From Streptomyces sp. HNM0574 (lineage in GTDB: Bacteria; Actinomycetota; Actinomycetes; Streptomycetales; Streptomycetaceae): a stretch of DNA of 64,000 nt. How positions within the stretch are numbered: position 1 is the first letter of the stretch; each line of letters starts with the position of its first letter. The translations under genes and the position numbers were made by a program. Location: the NCBI RefSeq assembly GCF_012726235.1, contig NZ_JAASAH010000018.1:62001-126000 (forward strand). The letters run 5' to 3'. Below are positions 10,642 to 42,068 of this stretch, piece after piece. A model generated the notes under the pieces. That model saw only the letters and a program-made list of their open reading frames with translations. It ran no database searches and was not told the DNA's origin.

Positions 10642-10670
10642 GTGAACGCGAGTTCACCAGGCGAACAAGG
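10642..10670 (+). promoter_or_regulatory. IclR-type operator in front of the aldehyde dehydrogenase gene
   Basis: GTGAAC, three bases, then AGTTCACCAGGCGAACAAGG. The 20-base part is identical to the pobA operator at 23088-23107 (opposite strand), and the TGAAC half-site is at the same distance. It contains three half-sites: TGAAC, GTTCACC and GGCGAAC. It ends 62 bases before the start codon and lies just downstream of the predicted transcription start, which suits repression. Confidence 0.7.
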
Positions 10671-10732
10671 CCCTGCGGCCGTCGCTCCCGGGCCGCACCG
10701 CACCGCCCCCGCACCCCGAAGGACCCCGTCTC

Positions 10733-12193: not shown

Positions 12194-12200
12194 CCCCCGG

Positions 12201-13118
12201 TCAGCCGACGGAGTCGAGGAAGTCCAGGATCCGGCGGTTGACCTGCTCGGCGTGGTCGATCTGCGGCCCGTGCCCGGTGGCGCGGACGATCTCGGCGCGC
12301 GCCCCCGGCACCAGCCGCGGCACCCGTTCCGCCTGGCGCCGGGGGTGCACCAGCAGGCTCCGCTCGCCGAGCACCAGGTACAACGGCGTGCGGAGGGTGC
12401 GCAGTTCGTCCTCGGTGAGCGGGAGCGGCGCCGGGCGCCGGATGCGGTGGGCGCGCACCCCGGCGCGGATCATGGCCCGCAGTTCGGGGACGACGAGGAC
12501 GGGCTGTTCCAGCCAGGCGGCCAGCCGGGGGCGCAGCGCGCGGGGCGCGAAGGTCGCGAAGTAGCCGGCGAAGATCCAGGCGAAGAAGCGGAGGCCGACC
12601 TTCTCCAGCCCGCCGGGATCGAGCAGGGTGACGGAGGCGAGGCGGCCGGGGGCGCGGTGCGCCTGGTTCAGCGCGAGCCATCCGCCGTAGGAGCTGCCGA
12701 CGAGGTGGACGCGGTCGAGACCGAGCCCGTCGAGCGTCTCCTCCAGCCAGGCCGCGGCGCGTTCGGGCTGGTGGACGGCCTCGCGCTGGACGCTGCGGCC
12801 GGGGTCGCCGGGGGTGTCGACGGCGTAGACCGGGCGTTCGGCGGCGAACGCGGGCGTGTTCGGGTACCACATCGCGGAGCAGCTGCCCGAGCCGTGCACC
12901 AGGACGACGGGGGTGCGGGCGGCCGCCGGCCCCTCGGTCGGCCCGTACCGGTAGACGTGGGTGGTGCCCGCGCGGGTCTCCACGTCGGTCTCCGCGACGG
13001 CGGGCGCGCCCAGCGCGTAGACGGCGTCGCAGGCGGCGAAGTAGCGGTCGCGCAGCGCCTCGTCGACGTAGCGGCCGACGTCGGCCGGGACACCCTCGCG
13101 GGTCACGGATTCGGACAC
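12201..13118 (-). CDS. Alpha/beta-fold hydrolase
   Basis: 305 residues from GTG 13118, eight bases after AGGAGG. The oxyanion motif HGSGS, nucleophile elbow GSSYGG, and C-terminal GHGPQIDHAEQVNRRILDFL with the catalytic His define an alpha/beta hydrolase. It resembles carboxylesterases or C-C hydrolases of unknown substrate. A long in-frame extension beyond 13118 is antisense to the tetR gene and is not part of the protein. It is divergent from tetR, with two perfect palindromes between, so expression is probably induced when TetR binds its ligand. Confidence 0.88.
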   Translation of the reverse strand: MSESVTREGVPADVGRYVDEALRDRYFAACDAVYALGAPAVAETDVETRAGTTHVYRYGPTEGPAAARTPVVLVHGSGSCSAMWYPNTPAFAAERPVYAVDTPGDPGRSVQREAVHQPERAAAWLEETLDGLGLDRVHLVGSSYGGWLALNQAHRAPGRLASVTLLDPGGLEKVGLRFFAWIFAGYFATFAPRALRPRLAAWLEQPVLVVPELRAMIRAGVRAHRIRRPAPLPLTEDELRTLRTPLYLVLGERSLLVHPRRQAERVPRLVPGARAEIVRATGHGPQIDHAEQVNRRILDFLDSVG

Positions 13119-13149
13119 GGTGCACCTCCTGGGGAGCGTCACTCTCTCG

Positions 13150-13187
13150 TGGTACGACGGTACCACTGTGGTGGTACGGCGGTACCA
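13150..13187. promoter_or_regulatory. Tandem TetR operators
   Basis: Two copies of TGGTAC-N4-GTACCA (13150-13165 with spacer GACG; 13172-13187 with spacer GGCG), each with perfect six-base arms. Their centres are 22 bases apart, about two helical turns. They sit in the 132-base gap between the hydrolase and the divergent tetR gene, the classic position for a self-regulating TetR repressor. Confidence 0.75.
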
Positions 13188-13250
13188 TCTCAGGGTGCGG
13201 GCCCCGGCGGCCCGCGCGCGCACCGGAGCCAGCGAGGAGGAGACCGGCCG

Positions 13251-13868
13251 ATGAGCAGGCGTGTGGACCACGACGAGCGGCGCGGGGAGATCGCCGCGGC
13301 CCTCGTCCGGGTGGCGGGGCGGCGCGGGCTGCACGCCGTGCGGATGCGGGACACGGCCGAGGAGGCCGGGGTGTCGGTGCGGCTGGTGCAGTACTACTTC
13401 GACACCAAGGAGAAGCTGCTGCACCACGGACTCCAGTACCTCGCCGACGAGTTCGGCCGCCGCGTCGCCGCCCGGCTCGCCGAGGCCGGGGAGGACCCGG
13501 GCCCGCGCGAGAAGATCGACGCGCTGCTCATGGTCTCGCTGCCGGCCGACGAGGAGAGCCGCACCTTCCACCTCGTCTGGACCTCGTACGCGGTGCTCGC
13601 CGTGACGGACGAGGCGCTGGCCGCGCAGCCCTTCCTCAGCAGGCCGGACGCCGCCGAGGACCTGGTCGCCGGGCTGCTGGAGGAGGCGGCCGGGCAGGGC
13701 CTCACCGAGCCGGGGCTCGACGCGCGGACCGAGGCCGTCGCCCTGCTGGCCCTGTCGGCCGGGCTCGGCACCGCCGTCCTCAGCGGCCAGCGGGACCCCG
13801 GCTCCGCCGCGGCCGTCCTCCGCCACCAGCTCGGCCGGCTCTTCCGGGACGGGGAGCGAACGGGCTGA
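13251..13868 (+). CDS. TetR-family transcriptional repressor
   Basis: 205 residues, start supported by GAGGAGGAG. The N-terminal DNA-binding domain reads RRGEIAAALVRVAGRRGLHAVRMRDTAEEAGVSVRLVQYYFDTKEKLL, with the TetR hallmark YYFDTKEKLL. The C-terminal ligand and dimer domain is about 150 residues (PADEESRTFHLVWTSYAVLA). It probably represses itself and the divergent alpha/beta hydrolase through the two palindromes at 13150-13187, and releases them on binding a small molecule related to the hydrolase substrate. Confidence 0.9.
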   Translation: MSRRVDHDERRGEIAAALVRVAGRRGLHAVRMRDTAEEAGVSVRLVQYYFDTKEKLLHHGLQYLADEFGRRVAARLAEAGEDPGPREKIDALLMVSLPADEESRTFHLVWTSYAVLAVTDEALAAQPFLSRPDAAEDLVAGLLEEAAGQGLTEPGLDARTEAVALLALSAGLGTAVLSGQRDPGSAAAVLRHQLGRLFRDGERTG

Positions 13869-13900
13869 CGCGGACGGGGCACAGCTCTCCTCGGCGGGTA

Positions 13901-13920
13901 CGTATCGGGTCGTATCCGGT
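13901..13920. promoter_or_regulatory. Tandem 10-base repeat before the Gfo/Idh operon
   Basis: CGTATCGGGT followed directly by CGTATCCGGT, nine of ten bases identical, in one-turn register, 25 bases before the GTG start. It is a possible regulator site for the three-gene operon; the regulator is not identifiable in the window. Confidence 0.35.
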
Positions 13921-13944
13921 GGACGGACGAGGAGGACGGGTCAC

Positions 13945-15096
13945 GTGACACGCAGGACGGTGCGGATCGCCATGAACGGCGTCACCGGACGGATGGGCCA
14001 CCGCCAGCACCTGGTCAGATCGGTCCTGGCACTCCGCGAACAGGGCGGGCTCGACCTGGGGGACGGCGAGGTGCTGTGGCCCGAACCCGTGCTGGTCGGC
14101 CGGCGCGGCCACGCGCTGGCGGAACTGGCCGGACGGTACGGGCTGGACGAGTGGTCCACCGACCTGGACGCCGTGCTCGCCGACCCGTCCGTCGAGGTCT
14201 ACTTCGACGCACAGGTGACAGTGGCCCGCGAGGAGGCGCTGCGCCGGGCGATCGCGGCGGGCAAGCACGTCTACGCGGAGAAGCCGGCCGCTTCGGACCT
14301 GGCGGGCGCGCTGGAGCTGGCCAGGAGCGCGCGGGCCGCCGGCGTCCGGCACGGCGTGGTGCAGGACAAGCTGTTCCTGCCGGGGCTGCGGAAGCTGAAG
14401 CGGCTGGTGGACGGCGGCTTCTTCGGCCACGTGCTGTCCGTGCGCGGCGAGTTCGGCTACTGGGTCTTCGAGGGCGACTGGCAGGAGGCGCAGCGCCCGT
14501 CCTGGAACTACCGCGCGGAGGACGGCGGCGGCATCGTCGCCGACATGTTCCCGCACTGGGAGTACGTGCTGCACGAGCTGTTCGGCCCGGTCCGCTCGGT
14601 GCAGGCGCTCGCCACGACGCACATCCCGCGCCGCCGGGACGAGCGGGGCGAGCCGTACGCGGCGACCGCGGACGACGCGGCGTACAGCGTCCTCGAACTG
14701 GACGGCGGGATCGTCGCGCAGATCAACTCCTCGTGGGCGGTGCGCGTCGCCCGGGACGAGCTGCTGGAGTTCCAGGTGGACGGCACGGAGGGTTCGGCCG
14801 TCGCCGGGCTGCGCGGGTGCCGCGTGCAGCACCGGTCGGTGACGCCGAAGCCCGTGTGGAACCCGGACCTTCCGGCGGGCGATTCCTTCCGGGAGCAGTG
14901 GCAGGAGGTGCCGGACAACGGGGAGTTCGACAACGCGTTCAAGGCCCAGTGGGAGCACTTCCTCCGGCACGTGGCGCGGGGCACCCCCTTCCCCTGGGAC
15001 CTCGTGGCCGGGGCGCGCGGAGTGCAGCTGGCCGAACTGGCGCTGGCCTCCTCGGCCGGGGGCCGCCGGATGGCCGTCCCGGAGCTGTCCCTGTGA
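13945..15096 (+). CDS. Gfo/Idh/MocA-family oxidoreductase
   Basis: 383 residues, GTG start with GAGGAGGA upstream. An N-terminal Rossmann domain (VRIAMNGVTGRMG), the AEKPA motif at about 111-115 with the family's catalytic Lys, and the second domain with ADMFPHWEYVL complete the family pattern. The reaction is NAD(P)-dependent oxidation or reduction of a sugar or polyol, often at C3. It is the first of three genes joined by GTGA and ATGA overlaps, with a DUF993 protein and a xylose-isomerase-type TIM barrel, which points to a dedicated sugar or cyclitol breakdown route. The substrate is unknown. Confidence 0.88.
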   Translation: MTRRTVRIAMNGVTGRMGHRQHLVRSVLALREQGGLDLGDGEVLWPEPVLVGRRGHALAELAGRYGLDEWSTDLDAVLADPSVEVYFDAQVTVAREEALRRAIAAGKHVYAEKPAASDLAGALELARSARAAGVRHGVVQDKLFLPGLRKLKRLVDGGFFGHVLSVRGEFGYWVFEGDWQEAQRPSWNYRAEDGGGIVADMFPHWEYVLHELFGPVRSVQALATTHIPRRRDERGEPYAATADDAAYSVLELDGGIVAQINSSWAVRVARDELLEFQVDGTEGSAVAGLRGCRVQHRSVTPKPVWNPDLPAGDSFREQWQEVPDNGEFDNAFKAQWEHFLRHVARGTPFPWDLVAGARGVQLAELALASSAGGRRMAVPELSL

Positions 15097-16262
15097 GCGC
15101 GGGCATCCGGCTCCCGGACGGGAACGGGGAGCTGCGTACGTACGTCCCGCGCACCGAACCCGCCGTCGGCCCGACCGAGGTGGCCCAACCGCCCCGTGCG
15201 CGCGCCGTGTTCGCCGCCGCGCACGTGGTCGCCGACCCGTACGCGGAGACCTCGCCGGACGGGCCGGCGCGGCTGGACTGGGAGGCCACGCTCGCGTTCC
15301 GGCGGCACCTGTGGGCGCACGGGCTGGGCGTCGCCGAGGCGATGGACACCGCGCAGCGCGGCATGGGCCTGGACTGGGCGGGCGCGGCCGGGCTGATCCG
15401 GCGTTCGGCGGCCGAGGCGCGGGCCGTCGGCGGCGCCCTCGTCTGCGGGGCCGGTACGGATCAACTCCCGCCCGGCACCGCGGACCTGGCGGCGGTGCGG
15501 GCCGCGTACGAGGAGCAGCTGGAGGTGGTCGAGGCGGCCGGTGCGCGGGCGGTGCTGATGGCGTCCCGCGCGCTGGCGGCCGCGGCGCGCGGCCCGGAGG
15601 ACTACGCCGGGGTGTACGGGCACCTGCTGCGGCAGGCGGCGGAGCCTGTGGTGCTGCACTGGCTGGGGCCGATGTTCGACCCGGCGCTGACGGGCTACTG
15701 GGGCAGCCCGGACCTGGACGAGGCCACCGCCGCCTTCCTCCGCGTCGTCGCCACGCACCCGGAGAAGGTCGACGGGGTGAAGGTGTCCCTGCTCGACCCC
15801 GGGCGCGAGCGGGCGCTGCGGCGCGCGCTGCCGGCGGGGGTGCGCTGCTACACCGGCGACGACTTCCACTACCCGGAGCTCGTCGAGGGCAACGCGGAGG
15901 GCTTCAGCGACGCGCTGCTCGGCGTCTTCGACCCGCTCGCGCCGCTCGCCGCCCGCGCGGTACGCCACCTGGACACCGGCGGGACGGCGGCATTCCGCGC
16001 GGTGCTCGACCCGACGGTTCCCCTGGCCCGGCACCTGTTCGCGGCGCCGACCCGCTACTACAAGACGGGCGTGGTGCTGCTCGCCTGGCTGGCCGGGTTC
16101 CAGGAGCACTTCGTGATGGCGGGCGGCCTCCAGTCGGCCCGTTCGCTCCCCCATCTGGCCCGCGCCTACGAACTGGCCGACGGGATCGGCCTGTTCCCCG
16201 ACCCGGGCCTCGCCCGGCACCGCATGCGGCAGCTGCTCGACCTCCACGGAGTCCGGCCATGA
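15093..16262 (+). CDS. DUF993 family protein (DHDPS-like TIM barrel)
   Basis: 389 residues from a GTG that overlaps the preceding stop by four bases. It matches the DUF993 family, distant relatives of dihydrodipicolinate synthase: ADPYAETSPDGPARLDWEATLAFRRHLW near the N-terminus, LHWLGPMFDPALTGYWGS in the middle, VDGVKVSLLD with a Lys at the position where DHDPS aldolases form a Schiff base, then CYTGDDFHYPELV. It is probably an aldolase or lyase acting on the product of the neighbouring dehydrogenase. This is inference, since no DUF993 reaction is known to me. Confidence 0.85.
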   Translation: MSAGIRLPDGNGELRTYVPRTEPAVGPTEVAQPPRARAVFAAAHVVADPYAETSPDGPARLDWEATLAFRRHLWAHGLGVAEAMDTAQRGMGLDWAGAAGLIRRSAAEARAVGGALVCGAGTDQLPPGTADLAAVRAAYEEQLEVVEAAGARAVLMASRALAAAARGPEDYAGVYGHLLRQAAEPVVLHWLGPMFDPALTGYWGSPDLDEATAAFLRVVATHPEKVDGVKVSLLDPGRERALRRALPAGVRCYTGDDFHYPELVEGNAEGFSDALLGVFDPLAPLAARAVRHLDTGGTAAFRAVLDPTVPLARHLFAAPTRYYKTGVVLLAWLAGFQEHFVMAGGLQSARSLPHLARAYELADGIGLFPDPGLARHRMRQLLDLHGVRP

Positions 16263-29409: not shown

Positions 29410-30030
29410 TCAGCCGCCGGCGGGGGCGGGGGCCGGGTGGGTTCCGCTGTAGCGCATGGCGTGCTCGACGACGGAGATGAGCACCTCCCGCACCGAGTCG
29501 CGCTCCCGCGCGTCGCACAGCAGCACCGGCGTCTCCTCGTCCAGGTCGAGCGCCTCCCGCACGGTCTCCACCGGGTAACGCTCGGCGTCGTCGAAGCAGT
29601 TGACGGCGACGGTGAACGGGATGCCCCGGCGCTCGAAGTAGTCCACCCCGGCGAAGCTGTCGGCCAGCCGCCGGGTGTCGGCCAGGACGACCGCGCCCAG
29701 CGCGCCCTGGGACAGCTCGTCCCACAGGAACCAGAAGCGGTCCTGCCCGGGGGTGCCGAACAGGTACAGCACCAGTCCGTCGCTGATGGTGATGCGGCCG
29801 AAGTCCATGGCGACCGTCGTCGTGGACTTCTGCTCCACGCCGTCGGTGTCGTCGACGGGGCGGCCCGCCTCGGTCAGCAACTCCTCGGTCCGCAGCGGCT
29901 TGATCTCGCTCACCGCGCCGACCAGGGTCGTCTTCCCGACGCCGAAGCCGCCCGCGACCAGGATCTTCAGCGTCACCGGTTCGGTGCGCGCGCTCTTTCG
30001 TGCCGCGCGCTTAGAGCGCCCGAAGGCCAT
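29410..30030 (-). CDS. cvnD: Conservon GTPase CvnD
   Basis: 206 residues. The G1 box AGGFGVGKTTLV, G3 FGTPGQDRFWFLWDE and an N(C)FD-type G4 (VNCFDD) mark the small Ras-like GTPase of the conservon. It is the last of four minus-strand genes (CvnA sensor, CvnB roadblock, CvnC DUF742, CvnD GTPase) that resemble a eukaryotic GPCR signalling complex at the membrane. Its start lies inside the cvnC reading frame (20-base overlap). Conservons influence development and secondary metabolism in Streptomyces; the signal for this copy is unknown. Confidence 0.93.
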   Translation of the reverse strand: MAFGRSKRAARKSARTEPVTLKILVAGGFGVGKTTLVGAVSEIKPLRTEELLTEAGRPVDDTDGVEQKSTTTVAMDFGRITISDGLVLYLFGTPGQDRFWFLWDELSQGALGAVVLADTRRLADSFAGVDYFERRGIPFTVAVNCFDDAERYPVETVREALDLDEETPVLLCDARERDSVREVLISVVEHAMRYSGTHPAPAPAGG

Positions 30031-30433
30031 TGATTACCTCTCTGAGGATGCTCTCGTCCGGCAGCTCGGCCGGGGGTACGGGGCGGCTGACGCGGACGAG
30101 TTCCGCGTCGATGAGGTCGCCGACGAGGACACGGACGACCCCGACCGGGAGGTCGAGGTCGGTGGCGAGTTCGGCCACGGACTGGGGGCTGCTGCGGCAC
30201 ATCAGCACGATGTCGACCTGCTCGGGGGCGAGGGTCGTGTCGTGCAGCAGCGCGTCGTCCCCGTCCGCTCCCGCGTCCGGGCCGCCGTCGTCCGGCGCCT
30301 CCGGGTCCTCGGCGATCACGAGAGCGATCAGGTCGAGCCGCTCCTCGTGGGCTCCGCTCCGGGTGCGGCCGCGCGTCATGGCGTACGGCCGCACCACAGG
30401 TCCTGCCGCGTCGTCGAACCAGCGGTCCGTCAT
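30011..30433 (-). CDS. cvnC: Conservon protein CvnC (DUF742)
   Basis: 140 residues. The DUF742 winged-helix-like core is VVRPYAMTRGRT, then LDLIALV..., CRSSPQSVAELATDLDLPVGVVRVLVGDLIDAELVRVSRP, ending ILREVINGLRAL. An acidic Asp/Gly insert (about 45-65) interrupts the usual compact fold. It is believed to be an adaptor between sensor and GTPase; here it is encoded 76 bases after cvnB and overlaps cvnD. Confidence 0.92.
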   Translation of the reverse strand: MTDRWFDDAAGPVVRPYAMTRGRTRSGAHEERLDLIALVIAEDPEAPDDGGPDAGADGDDALLHDTTLAPEQVDIVLMCRSSPQSVAELATDLDLPVGVVRVLVGDLIDAELVRVSRPVPPAELPDESILREVINGLRAL

Positions 30434-30509
30434 GCCTCGTCCTGTCAGCGTCCGGTCAGCGTCTTGTCGGGTCCCGCCGGTCTCCCGGCGGGGTGCCCCT
30501 CTCCACCTC

Positions 30510-30941
30510 TCACCTGCCGTCCGAGCTGCCGCGCGGGGCGGTGCTCAGGTGCGTACCGACCCGCTTGACCAGCAGCGTCATCTCGTAGGCCACGAGGCCC
30601 ACATCGGACTCGGCGTCGGCGAGGACGGCGAGGCAGCTGCCGTCACCGGCGGCGGTGACGAACAGGAAGGCGTCGTCGAGCTCGACGACGGTCTGCCGGA
30701 CGCTGCCCGCGTCGAAGTGCCGGCCGACGCCCTTGGCGAGGCTGTGGAACCCCGAGGCGACGGCGGCCAGGTGCTCGCTGTCCTCCCGGGTGAGGTCCCG
30801 CGAGACGCCACGGGGCAGTCCGTCGCCGGAGAGTACGAGGGCTTTGCGGATGCTGCCGACGCGCTCCACGAGGTCGTCGAGGAGCCAGTTCAGCTCCCCG
30901 GTGCCCGAGGTGTTCTGCGCTGCGGCCTGTGGTGCGGTCAT
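30510..30941 (-). CDS. cvnB: Conservon roadblock/LC7 protein CvnB
   Basis: 143 residues, one roadblock/LC7 domain: LNWLLDDLVERVGSIRKALVLSGDGL, HLAAVASGFHSLAKGVGRHF, and FLFVTAAGDGSCLAVLADAESDVGLVAYEMTLLVKRVG in sequence. By analogy with MglB it could act on the CvnD GTPase as a GAP or scaffold. Its ATG overlaps the cvnA stop as ATGA, so the two are translationally coupled. Confidence 0.93.
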   Translation of the reverse strand: MTAPQAAAQNTSGTGELNWLLDDLVERVGSIRKALVLSGDGLPRGVSRDLTREDSEHLAAVASGFHSLAKGVGRHFDAGSVRQTVVELDDAFLFVTAAGDGSCLAVLADAESDVGLVAYEMTLLVKRVGTHLSTAPRGSSDGR

Positions 30942-33787
30942 CGACCGTCCCCCTCCGGTGTCGTTCCTGGTGCTGTCTCCCCCCGCTGACGCCCGGGGCC
31001 GTTCCCCCGGGTGTCCCGCGCCGCGTCGCCCTCCGGGCCCGCGGCGCCGCCGGTGCCGGCCGAGCTCTCGCCGGTCTCGCTGTTCTTCGCGCGTCCGCGC
31101 TGCCAGCCGCGCTGGAGCGAGGCCATCCGGCTGCGGACCTCGTCCGCGTCCCGGTCCTCCAGCGCGGGCGCCGGCTCCGCCGCGCGCTCGCCCTTCCCGC
31201 CGCCGCTCTCCTGGCCGTCCTTGCGCAGCTGCGGCGCGAGGTTGGCCTGGCGGACGCGGCGCGGCAGGCCGCCGACGGTGGCGGCGGGCTGCTCCTCGCC
31301 GGCGCCCTCGCCCTGGGCCGCCGCGGGCCCGGTGTCCGTGGCGCGGGTGCGCCGGGGTTCCGGGCTCGGGTCCGAGGGGGCCTCGGTCCCGGCGCGGCGG
31401 GTGCGGTCCCGGGCGGCGTCGTCCTCGCGCTCGCCCCGCCGGTCGCCGCCGACGCGGCGGCCGTTGTCGGAGACGAGGACGGGCGTGTTCCGGCGGCGGC
31501 GCGGCAGCGGTGCCGGACGGCCGGACGACTCGTCGGGCTCGCCGCGTGCTTCGCCGCGTCCGTTCCCCGCCGCCGTGACCGGGGGTTCCGTGGACGGGGG
31601 CGAGGGGCGGGGGCCCGCGGGGCGGGAGCGTTCGGTCTCCTCGTCGGCCTGCTGGTGCTGTTCGGCCGCGGCCTTGCCGAAGAGGCCGCCGCCCGCGGGC
31701 GCGTCCAGCTCCGGGAGCGGCGACTCCAGTTCGACGGGGCCCTTCAGCGGGCGCGGCGAACCGCCGCGCTCCAGCGAGGGCTTCGGGTCGCGGCTCAGCG
31801 CGCCGAGGCCGCTGCGGCCCGGGGTCTCGGCGCCCGCGGGCGTGCCCGTCTCCTCCCCCGCGTCGAGCCCGGCGCGGCCGCCGTCGGCGCCGTCCTGCGT
31901 CTCGGTGAGCACGCTGCCGGGGATGAGGACGACGGCGGTGGTGCCGCCGTACGGCGAGGGCTGGAGGGAGACGCGGACGCCCTGCCGCTGCGCCAGCCGG
32001 GAGACGACGAACAGGCCGAGCCGGTCGGTGTCCGACAGTTCGAACTCGGGTGTCTCGGCGAGCCGGAGGTTCGCGTCGAGCAGCGCGTCGGCGGGCATGC
32101 CGAGGCCGCGGTCGTGGATCTCGACGGTGAACCCGTTGGCGACGCGCTCGCCGCGTACCTGCACGGCGGTGTGCGGCGGCGAGAACACCGTGGCGTTCTC
32201 CAGGAGTTCGGCGATCAGGTGAGTGAGGTCGGCGACGGCGGAGCCGTCCACGGCCAGCCGGGGCAGGCGCCGCACCTCGATCCGTTCGTAGTCCTCGACC
32301 TCGGAGACCGCGGCGCGGACGACGTCCATCAGCTGGACGGGCTTGCGCCACTGCCGCGAGGGCGCGGCGCCGGAGAGGATCACCAGGCCCTCGGCGTGCC
32401 GCCGCATGCGGGTGGTGAGGTGGTCGAGGCGGAAGAGGTCGGCGAGCTCGTCGGCGTCCTCGGTGCGGCGCTCCATGGTGTCCAGCAGGGTGAGCTGACG
32501 GTGCAGCAGCACCTGGTTGCGGCGGGCGAGGTTGACGAACACCTCGGACACTCCGCGCCGCATGTCCGCCTGTTTGACGGCCGCTTCGACGGCGGCGCGC
32601 TGGAGGGTGTTGAGCGCCTGCCCGACCTGGCCCATCTCGTCCGGCGGGTACTCCAGCCTGGGCGCCTCGGTCTCGACGTCGACCTCGTCGCCGGCGGCGA
32701 GGCGGCGCATCACGCTGGGCAGCCGCACGCCGGCCGACTCGTTGGCCTCCTTGCGGACGGCGTTGAGGTCGCGGACGAGTTCCCGGCCGACGCGGAAGGA
32801 GATGACGATCGAGCCGACGACGGCGGCGAAGCCGAGCACGCCGATCAGTCCGGCCTGGGTGAGGACCTTGGTGGCCTCCGGCTCGACGCGGCGCTGGTAG
32901 CGGCCGCCCGCCTCGTAGCCGAGCCGCTCCAGCGTGGTCAGCACCGTGGAGGTGGCCTTCTCCCAGCGTTCGCCGCTGACGACGGAGGCGCCGCCGGCGC
33001 CCGCGCCGACGATGGTGTCCTCGTACGCGCGCAGGGTGCGTCCGTCGGTGCTGTTCCAGAACTTCTCGAAGATCTCCCGCTCTTCGGCGGGCAGCGACTG
33101 GAGGTTGATCTCGTAGGTGAGGTTGCGCTCGGCGACGCGGTCGGAGAACGCGCGCCGGTCGCCCTTGGTCATCTGCCCGGAGGCGATGGCGGCTGCCATC
33201 AGCGCGTCCTCGCGGGAGAGGTACTCGCGGGCGCGGGTGAGGCCCACAAGTGCCCGGCCCTGGGTCTCCAGTTCGACGTTCTTGAGGCCGTTGAGCGTGG
33301 TGAGGAAGGAGTAGCAGGGGTCGACGAGGGCGTTGTACGCCTGGAAGGCGCCGCCGCGGGTGATGGTGTTGTCCTCGACCTGGGAGCGGATCTTGTCCAG
33401 GCCCTCCAGGGCGTCGGTCATCTCGTCGAGGCGGCGGCGCGAGTCGGCGGTGAGGTCCGAACGCAGGCCGCTGTCCCGGGCGTTGCTGCGGAGGGTGAAG
33501 ACCTCCTGGTCGGTGTCGCGCTGGAGTTTGCGCAGCCGCGTCAGGGCGTCCGAGCGGCGCGGGTCGGCCAGGTAGACCAGGATCTGGCGGCGCTCGTTCT
33601 GGATGGCTTGTGCGGTGTTCTCGGCGGGGGTGCCGACCTTGTCGACGGTGCCCGAGACGCTCAGCAGGTGACCGGCCTCCTGGCCCGTGAGATAGCTGGC
33701 GAAACCCCAGATGGTGGTGAGGGAAACCAGCGGCACGAGCAGCAGCACCACGATCTTCCGACGGATCGACTTCCCTCGAAAGCGCAT
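30938..33787 (-). CDS. cvnA: Conservon membrane sensor kinase CvnA
   Basis: 949 residues. An N-terminal helix (IVVLLLVPLVSLTTIWGFA), a large extracytoplasmic nitrate-sensor-like helical domain (about 40-310), a second helix (IGVLGFAAVVGSIVISF), a HAMP domain, an atypical dimerisation/phospho-acceptor region FRLDHLTTRMRRHAEG, and HATPase with N box ELLENATVFSPP and DRGLGMP. About 320 disordered, charged residues form the C-terminus. It is first in the cvnABCD operon. A degenerate HisKA makes true kinase activity uncertain; signalling through the partner GTPase is the known conservon model. Confidence 0.92.
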   Translation of the reverse strand: MRFRGKSIRRKIVVLLLVPLVSLTTIWGFASYLTGQEAGHLLSVSGTVDKVGTPAENTAQAIQNERRQILVYLADPRRSDALTRLRKLQRDTDQEVFTLRSNARDSGLRSDLTADSRRRLDEMTDALEGLDKIRSQVEDNTITRGGAFQAYNALVDPCYSFLTTLNGLKNVELETQGRALVGLTRAREYLSREDALMAAAIASGQMTKGDRRAFSDRVAERNLTYEINLQSLPAEEREIFEKFWNSTDGRTLRAYEDTIVGAGAGGASVVSGERWEKATSTVLTTLERLGYEAGGRYQRRVEPEATKVLTQAGLIGVLGFAAVVGSIVISFRVGRELVRDLNAVRKEANESAGVRLPSVMRRLAAGDEVDVETEAPRLEYPPDEMGQVGQALNTLQRAAVEAAVKQADMRRGVSEVFVNLARRNQVLLHRQLTLLDTMERRTEDADELADLFRLDHLTTRMRRHAEGLVILSGAAPSRQWRKPVQLMDVVRAAVSEVEDYERIEVRRLPRLAVDGSAVADLTHLIAELLENATVFSPPHTAVQVRGERVANGFTVEIHDRGLGMPADALLDANLRLAETPEFELSDTDRLGLFVVSRLAQRQGVRVSLQPSPYGGTTAVVLIPGSVLTETQDGADGGRAGLDAGEETGTPAGAETPGRSGLGALSRDPKPSLERGGSPRPLKGPVELESPLPELDAPAGGGLFGKAAAEQHQQADEETERSRPAGPRPSPPSTEPPVTAAGNGRGEARGEPDESSGRPAPLPRRRRNTPVLVSDNGRRVGGDRRGEREDDAARDRTRRAGTEAPSDPSPEPRRTRATDTGPAAAQGEGAGEEQPAATVGGLPRRVRQANLAPQLRKDGQESGGGKGERAAEPAPALEDRDADEVRSRMASLQRGWQRGRAKNSETGESSAGTGGAAGPEGDAARDTRGNGPGRQRGETAPGTTPEGDGR

Positions 33788-34022: not shown

Positions 34023-34565
34023 ATGTACGCGAAGCCGCGGTTGCCTGATCCGGTGCGCAGAGCGGCCGTCCGCGCCGTCGTGATCGTCGCGCTGACGCTG
34101 GTCCAGCTGATGGCGGCGGTGCTGTGCTCGCTCGCCGGGGTGTGGCTGGCCTTCCCCATGGGGCTGTTGACGGTGGCCGGCACGATCGCCGCCACCTGGG
34201 GCGTGCTGGACGTGTGGGTCACCCGGCAGGTGTGGGTGCAGCGGCACGGGGTGCTCTCGGAGCCCAGCAGCGTGGCCCGGGACCGCGCGTGGGCCCGGGC
34301 CAGGGCGCGCGGCGCGGAGCCCGGGGCCGGTCCGTCCGCCGCGGGCCCGTCCGCTGCGCCCGCGACGGCTCCGCGGCGGTCGCCGCCGCAGGGCCGTCAC
34401 ACGTCCGTCACATCCCGGGAGCCGGTGCGGGAGACGCCGGAGCGTCCGGCTCCGCTTCCGGGGTCTCCGGTGCCGCTGCGGCAGCCGCTTCCCCGGGCTC
34501 GGCGGGAGCCCGGTGCTCCTCGGCCGGACGGTCCTCGGGGCGGCGGAACATCCGGGTCGCCGTGA
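34023..34565 (+). CDS. Two-helix membrane protein with a basic, disordered C-terminus
   Basis: 180 residues from ATG 34023. Two membrane helices (VRAVVIVALTLVQLMAAVLCSLAGVWL and FPMGLLTVAGTIAATWGVLDVWV) are followed by about 100 residues rich in Arg, Pro and Ala. The last 158 bases run antisense into the 3' end of the SMC-like gene, so the tail is read from DNA that codes on both strands. I do not recognise the family. The gene is divergent from cvnA; a functional link to either neighbour is not shown. Confidence 0.65.
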   Translation: MYAKPRLPDPVRRAAVRAVVIVALTLVQLMAAVLCSLAGVWLAFPMGLLTVAGTIAATWGVLDVWVTRQVWVQRHGVLSEPSSVARDRAWARARARGAEPGAGPSAAGPSAAPATAPRRSPPQGRHTSVTSREPVRETPERPAPLPGSPVPLRQPLPRARREPGAPRPDGPRGGGTSGSP

Positions 34566-37500
34566 TCTCCCCGTGCACGGTCTCGCCCTCCGGGTCCTGC
34601 TGGGGCAGTCCGGGGCGCAGGTGCTCCTCGACGCTGATGTACTTCAGCCCGGCCCGCAGGTCCGCGTCGTTCCGCATCCGGATGACGAGCGGGAACTCGG
34701 CGAGCGCCGTGGTGTCGAACAGGCCCGTGGTGTACAGCAGTTGGACGCCGAGCGCGTCGGCGACGGCGCGCTGGAGCTCCAGCAGGTAGGTGGCGTTGGC
34801 CCGGCCGATGGGGTTGTCGAGGAACAGCGTGCCCGCGTGCCGGTGCTTGTCGTCCCCGCGGTCGTTGGAACGGAGCGCGGCCATCGTGCAGTACAGCGCG
34901 ATCGCGGCGGTCAGCAGCTGGCCGCCGGAGAAGACGTCGCCCATCTGCCCGACGGGGACGCGCTCGGCGCGGAGCACCGCGTCCGGCTTGAGGATCTCCA
35001 CGGCGACGCCGCGCGGCTGGAGCGCGGCGTGCACGCCGCGCAGCAGCAGCGTCATGCCGTCCCGCCGCAGGTCGGAGTTCTTCCGGACGGCCGACCTGGT
35101 GGCCTCGTCGATGACCTCGCCGAGCCGTTCGGTGAGCGTGGACTGGTCCGGGTCGTCCATGCGGATGCGCAGGAACTCCTGGCCCGACCACTCCCCCAGG
35201 CCGCCGGGCAGCCGGGAGAGGCGCTGGGCCGAACGCAGCGTCGCCAGCGAGGACTCGACGAGCCCGCGCAGCCGGTCGACGATGCTGTCGCGGTTGCGCT
35301 CCAGCTGGTCCAGCTCGTCGCTGAGGACGCGCAGCCGGGGCGCGAACGCCTCGGCCCACGCGGCCGCGTGCTCCGGCAGCGCGGCCGCGGGCAGTTCGCG
35401 GATCTGCTGGCGCGCCGGGGTGCGCACCTGTTCGTAGCGGGTGGAGTTGGCGTGCCGGACGAGGACGTCGCTCGCCTCCCGTACGGCCTGCTCGGCGGCG
35501 GAGAGGTCGGCGGCGCAGCCGCGCAGCGAGCGGCGGGACTCGGCCGCGGCCTGCCGGGCCTCGGCGAGGGTCCCGGCGTACGGTTCGGCGCGCTCGGCCT
35601 CCTCCTCGCGGTCGGCCGGCTGCGGGTCGCGCAGCAGGTCGGCGAGGAGGGCCGCGGTCTCGTCGAAGCCGCCCGCGGCGTCCTCGGCGGCGCGGTGGGC
35701 GCGGACCAGCTCGGCGTGCGCGGCGCGGGCCGCCTCCAACTCGTCCTCGCGCGCGGCGAGTTCGGTGTTGGCGGTGCGGAGCAGGGCCTGGGCCTGCTCG
35801 GCGTCGGCCGGTACCCGGTCCTCGGGGAGCGCGGTGTGGGCCTCGCCGTCCTCCGGGGCGAGCCGCTCGGCCTCGCCGCGCAGCCGCCCGAGCCGTTCGC
35901 TGGCTCCGGCGGCGCGGGTCTCCAGCTGCTGCACGAGGGCCTCGGCGCGGGCCGAGGCGGCCTGCCGGGCGGGGCCGTCGGCGCCCTCGGGCCCGTCCAG
36001 GAGCTGGGCGGCGCGGGTGCGGACCTTGTTGGTGAGCCGGTCGAGCGCGGCGAGCGCGGCCGACTCGTCGCTCTCGGCGCGGGCCTGTTCGGCGCGGAGG
36101 TCGGCGCCGACGCCGACCTTGTCGTACACCTGGGAGGCCGTGCGGTACGCCTCGCGCAGCGCGGGCAGCGAGGCGGGTGAGGAGTCCTCGGCGCCCGGCC
36201 GGTCCTCCTCCAGGTCCTCGGGGACGCCCGCGATCTCGGCCCGTTCGGCGCGCAGGGCGCGGGCGGTGCGGTGCGCGTCGTCGGCGGAGCGCTGGGCCGC
36301 GCGGCGGTTCTCGTCGGCGGCGTACGCGCGCTCGACGGCGGAGCTCGCGCGCTCCTCCGCCTCGGCGGCCTCGTCGGCCAGCTCCCGCAGCCTGGAGAGC
36401 CAGGTGGCGCGCTCGCGCAGCCGGAAGGCGAGCCCGGCCAGCGCGTCGGCGCTGCGGCTGGCCTGCTGCGCCATCGCCTGGCGCTCGTCGCGTTCGGCGA
36501 CGGCGCGGGCCGAGACCTCCTCGGCCTCGGCGCGGAGGGCGCGGCACTCCTCCAGGCGCTGCTGCGCCTCCTGGGCCGCGCGGCGCGCGTCGGCCGCGGC
36601 GGCGGCGAGTTCGGGCAGCCGCCCGGCGGGGCAGTGGGCGCGCCAGGAGGAGAGCCGGGCCGCGAGGGCGCGGTCGGCGGAGAGGCGCGCGGCGAGGGCG
36701 CGGATCTCCTCGTCGCGGGCGCTCGCGCGGCCGCGCAGCTGCTGCCGCTCGTCGTCGGCGGCGCGCTCGTCGTGCATGGCCGGGTTCGGCGGGACCAGGA
36801 ACACCTGGGTCTCGTCGGCGCCTTGGCCGGCGGCGGCCGGTGCGGGTGCGAGGAGCGCGGCCGCGGTGCCGACGGCGACGGCGGAGCGCGGCAGCAGCGT
36901 CGCCTCGGCGAGGACCTCGCGGGCGCGGGTGTGGCTGGCCGGGTCGGTGATGACGACGCCGTCGACGAGTTCCGGGCGGGCGGCGAGGACGGCGGAGTGC
37001 TCGGCCGGGTCGACGGACTGGGCGAGGTAGCGCCAGCCGGGCAGGGCGGGGACGCCGTGCTCGCCGAGGTACTCGACGGTGGCGAGGACGTCGGGGCCCG
37101 GCGGCAGCAGGCCGCCGTCGCCGAGCGCGCCGAGCATCCGGGAGTCCTCGGCGGCGGCGGTGCGCAGGTCGAACAGCTGCCGTTCGGAGGCGGCGACGGA
37201 CTCGTCCAGCAGCTCGCCGAGCGCCTCGGCGCTGCGGTCGAGGTCCTCGGCGCCGAGCGGGCCCGGGCCGGGAGCCGGCTCGCCGGTGCGCTGGGCGGGG
37301 AGCGCGTGGCCCTCGGACGGGGCCGACGGGTGCGGCAGGCCGAGGAGTTCGGCAAGCCGTTCCTCGGCGCCCAGTGCCTCGGCGGTGGCGCGCTCGGCGC
37401 CGTACGCGGACTCGGCGGCCTCGGCCGCGTCCGCGGCGCGGGCGGCGGCGAGTTCGGCGCGGGAGTGCTCGGACGCCGCCTCGGACGCGTGGTCGGCGGC

Positions 37501-39204
37501 GGTGCGGGCGCGCTCGCGGGCCTCCTCCCAGGCGGCGGCCGCGGTCTTCTCGGCGTCGGCGGCGGCGAGCGCGGCGCGGGCCGGGTCGGCGCCCTCGCCG
37601 GTGCCGTCGGCCGCGTCCGCCGTTCCGTCGCCGGAGGAGATCCAGCCGGCGCGGACGGCCTCGGCGGTCTCGGCCTCGACCTCGCTGAGCCGCTGGCGGA
37701 GGTGCTCGGTCTCGCTGCGGGCCCGCTGGGCCTCGGTGGCGGCGGCCGTCGCGTCCCGGTGCGCCGCGTCGCTCTCCTCCTGGAGGGCGGCCGAACGGGC
37801 CTCCTCCTCGCCCGCGATCCGCTCGCCGTCGACCGCCGCCTTGTGCAGGGCCCTCACGAGCGCGGCCGCGGCCTTGCCGCGTGCGGCGAGCGCGGGCGCG
37901 GCGTCCCGTTCGGCCTCCTGGATGGCGGCGGAGACGCGGGCCGCGCGGTCGGCGGCCGAGCGGTGCTGGAGCACCGTCTCGGCGGCCTGCCAGGCGGCGT
38001 GCAGGGTGCGCGCGTCGAGCAGTTCGCGGCGCTGGGAGGCGGCCGCCTTCTCGCCGGCGGCGAGCGCCAGCGAGGCGTGCCGGTAGGCGAGTTCGGCGGC
38101 GACGAGGGAGGCGCGGGACCGGGTCTCGCCGGCCCGGGTGACGGCGTGCCCGGCCTCGTCGGCGCGTTCGGCGAGCTCGGCGGCGCGGCCGCGTTCGCGG
38201 GTGCCGCGCGCGGTGAGCTGCCGGGCCAGGGAGCGGGTGCGGGACTCGGCGCCCGCGTGCACGCCGCGGGCGCGCTCGCGCTTCCCGGCCGCCTCGGCGA
38301 TGCGGCGCAGGTGGTCGAGAGAGCCGGCGGTGAAGTCGCGTTCGGCGGTGAGTTCGTCGCGGCGGCCGAGCTTGTGCGCGAAGCCGTGCACGAGGTCGGC
38401 GAGGCCGTCGGTGTCCCGGGTGTCGGTGACGGCCCGCAGCAGCAGGTCGGTGAAGTCGGAGTCGTTCTTGACGGCGAACAGGCCGGCGGCCTCGCCCTCG
38501 TCGGCGTTCATCTCCCGCTGGTAGCGGAAGAGTTCGGGGTCGAGGCCGAGCCCGGTGAGGTGCTCGTTCCAGCGCTCGTGGACCTCTTCCCAGCACACGT
38601 CGAGGTTCGGGTACGCCTTGCCGGTCTCGGTCAGGACGTCCCGGAAGCCCTTCATGGTGCGGCGGCGGCCGCGCGCCGCCGAGGCGCCCTCGGAGGAGGG
38701 CCGCAGCGCCGTGGACTCGGCGACGGGAAGCGAGTCGAGCCCGAGGCCGGGGCCGGGACGGAAGGAGTACCAGGCCTCGGCGAACTTCCGCGGGTCGCCG
38801 GAGACCTGGCGGCCCTTCCACTCGCTGACCTTGCCGACGACGATCGACTCACCGGTGCGGGTGTGCTGCCACTCCAGGGCCACGTGCCCGCAGTCGTCGG
38901 CCAGCAGGAACTTGCGGAGCACGCCGGAGCTGGCCCCGCCCAGGGTGTTGCGGTGGCCCGGCAGCATCACCGAGAAGATCAGCTTCAGCAGGACGGACTT
39001 GCCGCCGCCGTTCTCCAGGAACAGCACGCCGGCGGGCGCGGGGCGGCGCGGCGGGCCCGTCGGCTCGTCCTCGAAGAAGTCCGCCTGCGTCGGCGCGGGG
39101 CTGGGCACCGGCGCGCCGACCCCGCGCAGGTCCAGCACGGTGTCGGCGTAGCGCGCACCGGCGGGCCCGATGGAGTAGAGGCGGATCCGGGACAGCTCGT
39201 ACAT
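34408..39204 (-). CDS. SMC/MukB/JetC-like coiled-coil ATPase
   Basis: 1598 residues from ATG 39204. The N-terminal head has LFLENGGGKSVLLK (Walker A at about 64-70, first Gly of the motif replaced). Two very long Ala/Glu/Arg heptad regions follow, with a globular hinge-like part between them (about residues 680-790, DVLATVEYLGEHGVPALPGWRYLAQ). The C-terminal head has GQMGDVFSGGQLLTAA (ABC signature about 1426) and Walker B GTLFLDNPIGRAN (about 1460-1470), with Asn in place of the catalytic Glu. A Pro/Ala/Glu-rich tail of about 50 residues ends it. It is the third gene of an operon with KITE-like and kleisin-like partners, so a MukBEF/MksBEF/JetABC-type DNA loop-extruding or clamp complex is predicted. 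Confidence 0.82.
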   Translation of the reverse strand: MYELSRIRLYSIGPAGARYADTVLDLRGVGAPVPSPAPTQADFFEDEPTGPPRRPAPAGVLFLENGGGKSVLLKLIFSVMLPGHRNTLGGASSGVLRKFLLADDCGHVALEWQHTRTGESIVVGKVSEWKGRQVSGDPRKFAEAWYSFRPGPGLGLDSLPVAESTALRPSSEGASAARGRRRTMKGFRDVLTETGKAYPNLDVCWEEVHERWNEHLTGLGLDPELFRYQREMNADEGEAAGLFAVKNDSDFTDLLLRAVTDTRDTDGLADLVHGFAHKLGRRDELTAERDFTAGSLDHLRRIAEAAGKRERARGVHAGAESRTRSLARQLTARGTRERGRAAELAERADEAGHAVTRAGETRSRASLVAAELAYRHASLALAAGEKAAASQRRELLDARTLHAAWQAAETVLQHRSAADRAARVSAAIQEAERDAAPALAARGKAAAALVRALHKAAVDGERIAGEEEARSAALQEESDAAHRDATAAATEAQRARSETEHLRQRLSEVEAETAEAVRAGWISSGDGTADAADGTGEGADPARAALAAADAEKTAAAAWEEARERARTAADHASEAASEHSRAELAAARAADAAEAAESAYGAERATAEALGAEERLAELLGLPHPSAPSEGHALPAQRTGEPAPGPGPLGAEDLDRSAEALGELLDESVAASERQLFDLRTAAAEDSRMLGALGDGGLLPPGPDVLATVEYLGEHGVPALPGWRYLAQSVDPAEHSAVLAARPELVDGVVITDPASHTRAREVLAEATLLPRSAVAVGTAAALLAPAPAAAGQGADETQVFLVPPNPAMHDERAADDERQQLRGRASARDEEIRALAARLSADRALAARLSSWRAHCPAGRLPELAAAAADARRAAQEAQQRLEECRALRAEAEEVSARAVAERDERQAMAQQASRSADALAGLAFRLRERATWLSRLRELADEAAEAEERASSAVERAYAADENRRAAQRSADDAHRTARALRAERAEIAGVPEDLEEDRPGAEDSSPASLPALREAYRTASQVYDKVGVGADLRAEQARAESDESAALAALDRLTNKVRTRAAQLLDGPEGADGPARQAASARAEALVQQLETRAAGASERLGRLRGEAERLAPEDGEAHTALPEDRVPADAEQAQALLRTANTELAAREDELEAARAAHAELVRAHRAAEDAAGGFDETAALLADLLRDPQPADREEEAERAEPYAGTLAEARQAAAESRRSLRGCAADLSAAEQAVREASDVLVRHANSTRYEQVRTPARQQIRELPAAALPEHAAAWAEAFAPRLRVLSDELDQLERNRDSIVDRLRGLVESSLATLRSAQRLSRLPGGLGEWSGQEFLRIRMDDPDQSTLTERLGEVIDEATRSAVRKNSDLRRDGMTLLLRGVHAALQPRGVAVEILKPDAVLRAERVPVGQMGDVFSGGQLLTAAIALYCTMAALRSNDRGDDKHRHAGTLFLDNPIGRANATYLLELQRAVADALGVQLLYTTGLFDTTALAEFPLVIRMRNDADLRAGLKYISVEEHLRPGLPQQDPEGETVHGEITATRMFRRPEDRPAEEHRAPAEPGEAAAAAAPETPEAEPDAPASPAPAPGM

Positions 39205-39241
39205 GGCGGGGCTCTCGTCGTGAAGTCGGTGGGGCGTACGG

Positions 39242-40249
39242 TCAGGAGTGGAAGGGGAGGCCGGCGTCGGCGGCGATCTCCAGGTCGTCGGCCTCGTCGG
39301 GCGGGAGCAGGCTCGCGCTGCCGTCGCTGACGGGCACGACGCCCAGTTCCAGCAGCTCGGCCATGGCCGCGTTCCCCGCCATGTCGCGCACCTGCAACTG
39401 GTAGCGGGGGGTGGTGCGGTAGGTGCCGCCCGCGTCGTCGCCGGTGCGCTGGAGGAAGCCGGAGTCGGCGAGGAAGGAGACCGCCTTGGCGATGATGCCG
39501 GTGGTCGAACCGGCCAGCCGCCGCGCGTCCTTGGTCGCGCCGGTGGCACTGCGCCGGGCGTACACCCGCCAGGCCGCCTCCAGTCCGGGCGCGCCCGTCT
39601 CCGGATCGGTGTTCTCGCCGTCCTCCTCGGCCCGCTCCTCCAGCTTCCGGCAGGCCTGCCGGACGAAGGAGTCGACGCCGTTGACGGTGATCCGGCCGAT
39701 GTACGCGTCGTCCGCGAGGTCCTCGGGGCGGGGGAACGCCATGGCCGCGACGGCGAGATGGGCCAGCCCGTGCAGGAAGCGGTCGGCGGAGTCGGCGGTG
39801 GCGCGGCGCGCGTAGTCGCCCATGCGGACGGCGAAGACGGACTCCTCGTCGGCGGCGAGCGCCATCCCGGCCCGTGTGGAGACCTCCAGGACGACGAGGC
39901 CGAGGCCGGTGGCGACGGCGTCCGCGAGGCGCGCGAAGGCGGGTTCGTCGCGGTACCGGCGCAGCAGCCCGTCGTACTCGGCGTCGCGCGCGGGCAGCAG
40001 CTTGGGGTGCAGCCCGAAGGAGACCAGGCGGGCCGCGTCGGAGGCGTCCCCCGGGGTCACGGCCTGGGGCCCGGGGCGGGGCTCGGGCTCGCGTTCCGGC
40101 TCGGGGTCCGGTTCCGCGAAGGGCTCGTCGTCGTGGCCGGACTCCGGTGGTTCCGGGGCCGGTTCGGGTTCCGGGGCCGGTTCCCAGGGCTCGCCGGTGA
40201 CCGCTCCGGGCTCCGCCGGTGCGGGTGCGTCGGGGTGGTGCTCGGTCAC
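39242..40249 (-). CDS. KITE-like (MukE/MksE/JetB-type) winged-helix protein
   Basis: 335 residues from GTG 40249, preceded by AGGAG. The first 70 residues are Pro/Glu repeats (EPEPAPEPPES and EPDPEPEREPEPRP), then a helical and winged-helix body. The segment ARRLAGSTTGIIAKAVSFLADSGFLQRTGDDAGGTYRTTPRYQLQVRDMAG reads in parts as a C-terminal winged helix with wing, as in MukE/JetB. It sits between the kleisin-like and SMC-like genes with 49- and 37-base gaps. Such proteins bind the kleisin and DNA. The assignment rests on operon order and fold pattern, not on a strong motif. Confidence 0.65.
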   Translation of the reverse strand: MTEHHPDAPAPAEPGAVTGEPWEPAPEPEPAPEPPESGHDDEPFAEPDPEPEREPEPRPGPQAVTPGDASDAARLVSFGLHPKLLPARDAEYDGLLRRYRDEPAFARLADAVATGLGLVVLEVSTRAGMALAADEESVFAVRMGDYARRATADSADRFLHGLAHLAVAAMAFPRPEDLADDAYIGRITVNGVDSFVRQACRKLEERAEEDGENTDPETGAPGLEAAWRVYARRSATGATKDARRLAGSTTGIIAKAVSFLADSGFLQRTGDDAGGTYRTTPRYQLQVRDMAGNAAMAELLELGVVPVSDGSASLLPPDEADDLEIAADAGLPFHS

Positions 40250-40298
40250 GGGTGCTGCGCTCCTGGGGTGCGGGGACGGGAGGTTCGGCGGGGGCGGG

Positions 40299-41828
40299 TC
40301 ACGGGGTCTCCGAGCGGTCGGCTGCCATGCCCGCCGCGTCGAGGACGGCGGTGCCGAGGATGAGGTCGGCGCCGCCGAACTCCGGGTCGTCCAGCTGCTG
40401 TCCGTCGTCGACGGCGAACAGCAGCTGCCGCTCGCCCTGCCGGTAGGCGGTGCCGACCGGCGGGCTCGCCGCGTGCACGGCCAGCAGCGCGACCAGGTAC
40501 GGCAGTTCGGGGTCGCGTTCGCGGGCCTCGGCGAGCAGTCCGGAGAGGCGGCGGGGCGCGTCGGCCGGGAGGTCGAGCAGTTCGGTGGCCGACTCCAGCT
40601 GCTCCTCGCTGAACCGGCTGTCGTCCGGGGTGGCGACGAGGTCGGGCTCGGGCATCTCGGCACCCAGGTGCTCGCGCGGCGCGGGCGGGGTGAGCAGCAG
40701 GTCGACGAGGTCGCCGACGCGGACGGCGCCGGGGGTGCGCGGGCCGGTGCCGCGCGCGAACCAGGCGTCGGTGACGCGGGTGGCGTGCTCCAGCGGCAAC
40801 GGCAGGACGGGGGCGAGGAGTTGGCCGTAGACGTCCGTGCCCGTCCGGGCGGCGGGCGGGGCGAAGGACTGGCGGTCCTGCTCGGCCCGGAACAGCGGCC
40901 CGGCCTCCAGCAGCCGGGACTGGAGCTGGGTGTGCCGGCGGATGCAGTCCTTGACGATGTCGACCAGTTCGGCCGCGCGGCGCTTGTGGTCGGCGCCGCG
41001 CTCGGACTCGGCCTCGTCCCTGACCTTGCGGATGTTGGTGAGGATCGCGTTCTCGTGGCGGTACCGCTCGGCGACGTGGTCCAGCGCCTCGGTGATCATG
41101 TCGGGCACGGAGCGGAGCCAGTCGACGGCGCGGACGTTTCGCCGGGTGGACTCCAGGGTGCGGCGCAGGGATTCGGAGTACTGGACGGTGCGGTACCTGG
41201 CCTGCTCGGCGGCGAGCTGCGCGTCGGCCAGCCGGCCGCGGCTGATGAGCACCTCGAGCTTGACCTCGGCGGCGATCTGGGCGCTGGTGACGTCGGTGTC
41301 GAGGGCGCCGACGAGGACGTTCACCGCCTCGTCGGTGGTGCGCAGATAGACCCCGCCGCCGGGCCCGGGGACCTCTTCGACGAGCTTGAAGTCGTAGTCC
41401 CGGCGGACGTAGCCGCCCTCGGCGTCGAAGGTGCCGTACACGGCGCGGAATCCGCGGTCGACGCTGCCGACATTGATCAGGTTCTCCAGCACCCAGCGGG
41501 CCACCCGCTCGTGCTCGGCGCCGGGGTGCCCCGGGGCCTGGGCGGCGGCGCGGGGGACGAGCCGGGCGACTATCTGCTCGTGGTCGGCGCCGGTGTCGAA
41601 GTCCATGTGCAGGGTGACCAGGTCGATCGCGGCGAGCGCCAGCTCGGCCATCGCGTAATGCCCCACCTCACCGGCGAGGTTGGCCTTGCGTACGTCCAGG
41701 TCGTGCAGCGGCGCGGTGCAGGCGAGCGCGCGCAGCCTGCGTGCCAGGCCCTCGTCGGCCGCGGGGCCGGGGGCCGGGGAAGCGAAGGGAGGAGTGCTCA
41801 CCGGGACGTACTCAGTCACGACGGACAC
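40299..41828 (-). CDS. Kleisin-like (MukF/MksF/JetA-type) protein
   Basis: 509 residues from GTG 41828; GTG 41819 is an alternative, and neither has a clear ribosome binding site. The N-terminal part is winged-helix-like (REALACTA-type RRLRALACTAPLHDLD to DFDTGADHE), then YDFKLVEEV and YLRTTDEAVNVLVGAL. A long alpha-helical middle (about 170-310, AEVKLEVLISRGRLADAQLAAEQARYRTVQY, ENAILTNIRKVRDEAE) is followed by a C-terminal winged-helix-like end. This order matches MukF/JetA kleisins, which bridge the two SMC heads. It is the first gene of the operon; the promoter lies in 41829-42105. Confidence 0.65.
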   Translation of the reverse strand: MSVVTEYVPVSTPPFASPAPGPAADEGLARRLRALACTAPLHDLDVRKANLAGEVGHYAMAELALAAIDLVTLHMDFDTGADHEQIVARLVPRAAAQAPGHPGAEHERVARWVLENLINVGSVDRGFRAVYGTFDAEGGYVRRDYDFKLVEEVPGPGGGVYLRTTDEAVNVLVGALDTDVTSAQIAAEVKLEVLISRGRLADAQLAAEQARYRTVQYSESLRRTLESTRRNVRAVDWLRSVPDMITEALDHVAERYRHENAILTNIRKVRDEAESERGADHKRRAAELVDIVKDCIRRHTQLQSRLLEAGPLFRAEQDRQSFAPPAARTGTDVYGQLLAPVLPLPLEHATRVTDAWFARGTGPRTPGAVRVGDLVDLLLTPPAPREHLGAEMPEPDLVATPDDSRFSEEQLESATELLDLPADAPRRLSGLLAEARERDPELPYLVALLAVHAASPPVGTAYRQGERQLLFAVDDGQQLDDPEFGGADLILGTAVLDAAGMAADRSETP

Positions 41829-42068
41829 ACTAAGCGGTCACCCGGACAACGACCGAAACGGCATGGATGTCAGGGTTCGCCGCTCCTGTCCGGTGCACGG
41901 GGTGCGCGCCGCCGCTGCACCCGGACGGCACACCTCACCGCCGACGCGACAGTTTACGCAGCTCAGCGCGGGGACCCGCAGCCGGGTCGGCCTCCGGCCC
42001 GCGGAGTGCCCCGCGCCGCGGACCGGGTGTCATACGGCGGGGCGCCCCGGCTCGTGTACCCGGTGTCC

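Follow-up and report, generated by a model that had tools for sequence, protein, structure and literature searches.

On the minus strand of the window (the whole stretch of 64,000 nucleotides of Streptomyces sp. HNM0574 DNA that was analysed), we found the jetABC operon of a type III Wadjet motor without its nuclease. We propose, at a probability of about 60%, that this motor has been domesticated as a second condensin beside Smc-ScpAB, probably regulated by DNA damage. The best functional clue, beyond the reach of the initial annotation, is the promoter of jetA, which by its sequence is of the DNA-damage type. An initial annotation of this DNA had described the operon as a candidate for an undescribed system. 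Our results support the SMC trio and the missing nuclease and do not support novelty at the family level: PADLOC already models JetA3 and JetC3, and complete JetABCD relatives are present in other Streptomyces. The features discussed below are as follows.

29410-33787, minus strand: cvnABCD-like conservon, directly after the operon (names from sequence resemblance)
34408-39204, minus strand: jetC, SMC-like ATPase of the DUF3584 type, 1598 aa
39242-40249, minus strand: jetB, KITE-like, 335 aa
40299-41819, or to 41828, minus strand: jetA, kleisin-like, 506 aa from the GTG at 41819 or 509 aa from 41828
41827-41849, minus strand: PafBC/RecA-NDp-type promoter of jetA, TTGTCCG-N10-TAGTGT, with the apparent +1 at the start codon at 41819

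ORF calling in the window gave three co-directional minus-strand reading frames of 509, 335 and 1598 aa, as the initial annotation had described, and a codon-usage gene caller trained on the window recovered all three. Because the intergenic gaps are only 49 bp (jetA-jetB) and 37 bp (jetB-jetC), the genes are compatible with a single operon. Their codon usage is typical for genes of the host genome. They are not chance ORFs, since JetA is mostly 74-87% identical across the family and dN/dS is 0.07-0.30. A small gene on the plus strand (34023-34565), with probable membrane helices (MYAKPRLPDPVRRAAVRAVVIVALTLVQL...), is convergent with jetC and overlaps the end of that gene; about 240 bp of this region are conserved as a block at roughly 70-80% in Streptomyces.

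From sequence comparison, the operon corresponds to JetABC of Wadjet type III, and this identity is well supported, since JetA and JetC match the PADLOC models JetA3 (617.7 bits, E=4.7e-186, residues 22-507 of 509) and JetC3 (1378 bits, E=0), and JetB and JetC resemble those of a complete JetABCD operon, L041, of Streptomyces genome G112 (jetA 7248-8819, jetB 8816-9631, jetC 9657-14114, jetD 14111-15172). The identities to L041 are 40% for JetA, 41% over 245 aa for JetB and 31% in an end-to-end alignment for JetC; the JetD of L041 scores as JetD3 with 409 bits in PADLOC. For JetB itself, PADLOC gave nothing, and Pfam and NCBIfam nothing meaningful. No PADLOC model recognises JetB of this type III lineage, not even in L041, where JetA, JetC and JetD match. 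Pfam and NCBIfam searches were likewise without a useful match for JetA and JetC, and sequence and profile searches of the PDB returned no significant match to solved MukBEF chains.

The kleisin, KITE and SMC assignments proposed earlier agree with this homology to JetA, JetB and JetC, and the suggested kinship to Wadjet, Muk and Mks is borne out by the JetA3 and JetC3 matches and, with weak scores, by structure comparison. The AlphaFold2 models are of low confidence (pLDDT 60.8 for JetA and 55.7 for JetB). With the JetA model, the best five PDB matches in Foldseek were all MukBEF, MukE-MukF or Wadjet chains (best E=1.4e-3, probability 0.97), and with the JetB model the best two were chains of MukE-MukF complexes (E about 0.1). 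These matches agree with the kleisin/KITE assignment, are insufficient alone, and leave the folds weakly supported. In JetC, the Walker A motif LENGGGKSV (residue 63), the signature VFSGGQ (1424) and the Walker B motif TLFLDNP (1459) lie near the two ends of the protein, and the alignment shows identical ATPase motifs in relatives with and without the nuclease. The Walker B region (residues 1459-1470) reads LDNP, with Asn after Asp, in every type III JetC of the alignment, whether or not its operon has JetD. At the position of this Asn, the catalytic Glu is found in other SMC proteins. JetB has an acidic, proline-rich N-terminal tail of about 65 aa; the tail varies in length in the nuclease-less form, and several JetD-bearing relatives have a short one or none. 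The N-terminus of JetB contacts JetD in type I Wadjet, as stated in a review (PMC10586767).

The initial annotation had noted the absence of an adjacent nuclease, and in the window no JetD-like gene adjoins the operon; the next gene downstream of jetC is a histidine-kinase-like CvnA (30938-33787, named from sequence resemblance). In the host genome, no Pfam JetD_C match was obtained up to E=1. Pfam can miss type III JetD, as in genome G204, which was negative although its locus L083 shows JetD. Because Pfam overlooks some of these proteins, we built a custom profile from 13 type III JetD proteins, and this profile also found no match in the host genome. Among 150 Streptomyces genomes, the same profile gave strong JetD3 matches (E below 1e-50) in 11, all of which belong to the 13 genomes with at least two JetA matches. 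In the regions examined, all divergent operons whose jetC is intact and whose downstream DNA is long enough have jetD directly 3' of jetC, and no core operon has jetD there; contig ends truncate L087 and L089, and in L091 jetD and an intact jetC are both missing. No JetD was found beside the operon in 80 named loci from Streptomyces, Yinghuangia, Actinacidiphila, Frankia, Parafrankia and Pseudofrankia, 15 of which end inside or right after the operon and are hardly informative. A tblastn search for a JetD remnant in the 1.5 kb after jetC gave chance-level matches only (best E=0.16).

The initial annotation had proposed a neighbourhood survey for a fourth gene. Beyond the conservon lie genes for a glycerol kinase and then a glycerol facilitator (names from sequence resemblance). 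The neighbourhood of the operon is kept within Streptomyces, the conservon adjoining it in most Streptomyces loci examined, and is different in Frankiaceae. Comparison of the flanks found no fourth gene conserved beside jetABC across Streptomycetaceae and Frankiaceae. Two candidate partners were rejected: an upstream GntR-like gene is common in Streptomyces and absent from the window, and the conservon is absent beside the operon in Frankiaceae. A downstream ORF of 1296 aa was also discarded as a fourth gene; it cuts through the conservon genes out of frame, and these genes score higher when read in their own frames.

The DNA upstream of jetA is strikingly conserved, with a core of TTGTC[A/G/C]G-N10-TAnnnT followed after 6-7 bp by a GTG that opens the conserved jetA reading frame. 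Since this GTG sits so close to TAnnnT, the jetA message is apparently leaderless. The protein probably starts at GTG 41819 with 506 aa, and not at 41828, because the conserved -10 element (41827-41832) overlaps the longer start. The window copy, TTGTCCG-GGTGACCGCT-TAGTGT, is the sole match to TGTCVG-N10-TANNNT in 64 kb, where 0.19 were expected. Of the 72 Streptomycetaceae loci for which upstream DNA is available, 67 have the motif at jetA, and both strands of the 1.4 Mb scanned contain no match besides these 67; among the other five loci, at least four have near matches. An ordinary -35/-10 pair would need a longer spacing than that between the TTGTC block and TA. For PafBC, the motif has been published as TGTCGG-10xN-TA-3xN-T, with TGTCAG and TGTCAC as variants (PMC8151990), and the TGTCCG of the window is one base off TGTCAG and TGTCGG. 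In a control of 400 kb of the related Streptomyces G018, the TGTC[A/G]G form occurred five times, with one site 43 bp ahead of recA and another 9 bp ahead of a gene for a DinG/XPD-like helicase. RecA-NDp promoters have been reported upstream of a UV-inducible S. coelicolor gene (PMC5087735); on the contrary, an initial search suggested that the PafBC motif of M. smegmatis is not conserved in S. venezuelae (PMC9380542). By motif, direction and position, the jetA promoter is of the PafBC (RecA-NDp, RecA-independent) DNA-damage type, in agreement with the published consensus, and its induction is predicted from these features. Among the open-licence papers listed, we found none that joins Wadjet with PafBC.

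Four JetD-bearing operons of other Streptomyces (L041, L094, L095 and L096) have the canonical form, TGTCAGTG-N8-TAnnnT, upstream of jetA. Because complete JetABCD operons also carry the motif, damage control of Wadjet type III may predate the loss of JetD, and for the same reason the promoter alone cannot tell maintenance from defence. Furthermore, since the nuclease-less copies of Frankia are mostly without the motif, damage control would not be common to all nuclease-less members.

JetA of this kind was found in 148 of 150 Streptomycetaceae genomes, covering 17 of 17 genera, and in 147 of 150 genomes of the genus Streptomyces; in a few cases (G311, G725) the match is to a distant copy only, and of the five JetA-negative genomes of the two surveys together, three are less than 85% complete. 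The Streptomycetaceae proteins are mostly single copy. In a class survey of 198 genomes, JetA occurred only in Streptomyces and in one other family, Frankiaceae (identified from named loci), where 19 of 35 genomes have it and which forms a second nuclease-less group. A phylum survey added few other matches, 28-40% identical, and JetD is present wherever their operon is intact and the DNA reaches far enough. Complete type III JetABCD operons are separate from the core operon and are present in a minority of Streptomyces, so that nuclease-bearing and nuclease-less forms coexist in one genus and even in one genome (G112). The dN/dS values of 0.07-0.30 are for Streptomyces pairs and reach 0.36 for one pair of the Frankia group. 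As judged from these comparisons, the operon is under purifying selection, core in Streptomycetaceae and conserved in position. It is damaged in two Streptomyces genomes, either really or by assembly error: in L098 jetB and jetC were not found beside jetA, and in L099 jetC lies in two frames.

A tree built from the concatenated JetA, JetB and JetC sequences supports both the Streptomyces group and the Frankia group at 100/100 and places the latter with JetD-bearing operons at 97/98, which would imply two losses of JetD. In the AU test, a single nuclease-less clade was not rejected (p=0.115). JetD was lost once or twice.

The absence of JetD can be explained in several other ways. The type III scores of JetA and JetC would agree with an ordinary type III Wadjet whose JetD is encoded elsewhere in the genome, a case that the initial annotation had tied to strict co-occurrence with a distant JetD gene. 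However, both JetD searches of the host genome were negative, and among the 150 genomes strong JetD3 matches accompany only a second JetA copy, which where examined is a separate complete operon; by these searches, this reading is already contradicted, and we consider it very improbable. The operon could also be a decaying, functionless remnant of Wadjet, in line with the loss of JetD and with the truncated or frameshifted operons of single genomes (L098, L099). The low dN/dS between Streptomyces pairs, the intact ATPase motifs, the strongly conserved promoter and the near-universal presence already contradict decay, and it receives next to no weight from us.

Two further explanations keep a defence function. 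One is that JetABC serves as a Wadjet with a different, unlinked nuclease as effector in the place of JetD. JetABC is otherwise complete, with intact motor motifs, and thousands of other core genes are possible effectors. However, no fourth gene is kept beside the operon, whose flanks differ between Streptomycetaceae and Frankiaceae; JetD itself was not found in the host genome, and jetD directly follows jetC in those complete type III operons that were examined. We consider this arrangement quite unlikely. Another possibility is DNA immunity without a nuclease, in which JetABC would find small circular foreign DNA by loop extrusion and silence, compact or sequester it uncut, as proposed for eukaryotic Smc5/6. 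The closest characterised kin are defence systems, JetD-bearing relatives in the same genus have the same DNA-damage-type promoter, the JetC motor motifs are unaltered, and silencing of circular DNA by SMC complexes without cutting is discussed in a review (PMC10586767). On the other hand, a near-universal, mostly single-copy operon with 74-87% identity and conserved synteny is unlike defence genes, which are readily gained and lost, as JetABCD is in Streptomyces. We regard such immunity as unlikely, though worth keeping in mind.

The second condensin is the preferred reading. For relatives, the same review describes JetABC as a presumed DNA-extruding motor, with cutting by JetD once a small circle is fully extruded (PMC10586767). 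Under our proposal, single-stranded DNA arising in DNA damage would activate PafBC, which together with the housekeeping RNA polymerase would raise JetABC. The complex would load on DNA and extrude loops on the cell's own chromosome, and without JetD a completed loop or a collision would lead to no cutting. From the damage-type promoter we infer that this action on the chromosome would take place under genotoxic stress. ScpA is encoded elsewhere in the host genome (G000:C34), which fits the option, already raised in the initial annotation, of a condensin distinct from Smc-ScpAB; JetABC would be a second, stress-regulated one alongside it. In multi-genomic hyphae it may, for example, compact, tether or align sister chromosomes while DNA is being repaired.

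Among known systems, Wadjet type III (JetABCD) has homologous JetA, JetB and JetC in the same order with the same ATPase motifs, and some complete Streptomyces operons share the promoter type. The window operon differs from it in that JetD was found neither beside it nor in the genome and in being core, not accessory. MksBEF of Pseudomonas aeruginosa is likewise an SMC/kleisin/KITE trio without a nuclease; it is thought to be derived from JetABCD via loss of JetD and contributes to chromosome organisation, and the section of the review that treats it describes no DNA-damage-type promoter (PMC10586767). It probably belongs to another Wadjet lineage, and the likeness seen here is one of architecture. 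MksBEFG/EptABCD of corynebacteria and mycobacteria is also an actinobacterial SMC complex of Wadjet type, but retains its nuclease (MksG/EptD) and defends against plasmids (PMC10123090; PMC10586767). MukBEF has kleisin, KITE and SMC subunits too, and its chains are among the top Foldseek matches of JetA and JetB, with weak scores; however, jetABC has no significant sequence match to its solved chains. MukBEF replaced Smc-ScpAB, as noted in the review (PMC10586767), whereas the jetABC genome also encodes ScpA. In the part of an actinobacterial defence survey that deals with Wadjet, the system is enriched towards the ends of Streptomyces chromosomes and a core form is not mentioned (PMC10482375). 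Although the family is known, a nuclease-less, core form with a damage promoter was not found described in the open-licence literature searched.

The same review proposes an origin of MukBEF and MksBEF from defence systems through nuclease loss, but calls it unresolved (PMC10586767). Tentatively, and with rather less assurance than even odds would give, we suggest that an anti-plasmid Wadjet was disarmed by nuclease loss, perhaps twice independently (in Streptomycetaceae and in Frankiaceae), and became a genome-maintenance SMC complex, which in Streptomycetaceae would be a core, damage-controlled second condensin functionally comparable to eukaryotic Smc5/6. The presence of forms with and without JetD in one genus, and in one genome, makes such a change from defence to maintenance directly testable. 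Nearly all Streptomycetaceae genomes have the operon, which bears no Pfam or NCBIfam name and is flagged by a defence database despite the missing effector. If the damage control is true, the chromosome biology of this major antibiotic-producing group would gain a second condensin and a link to DNA damage, and this might help to explain the viability of smc deletion mutants in Streptomycetaceae.
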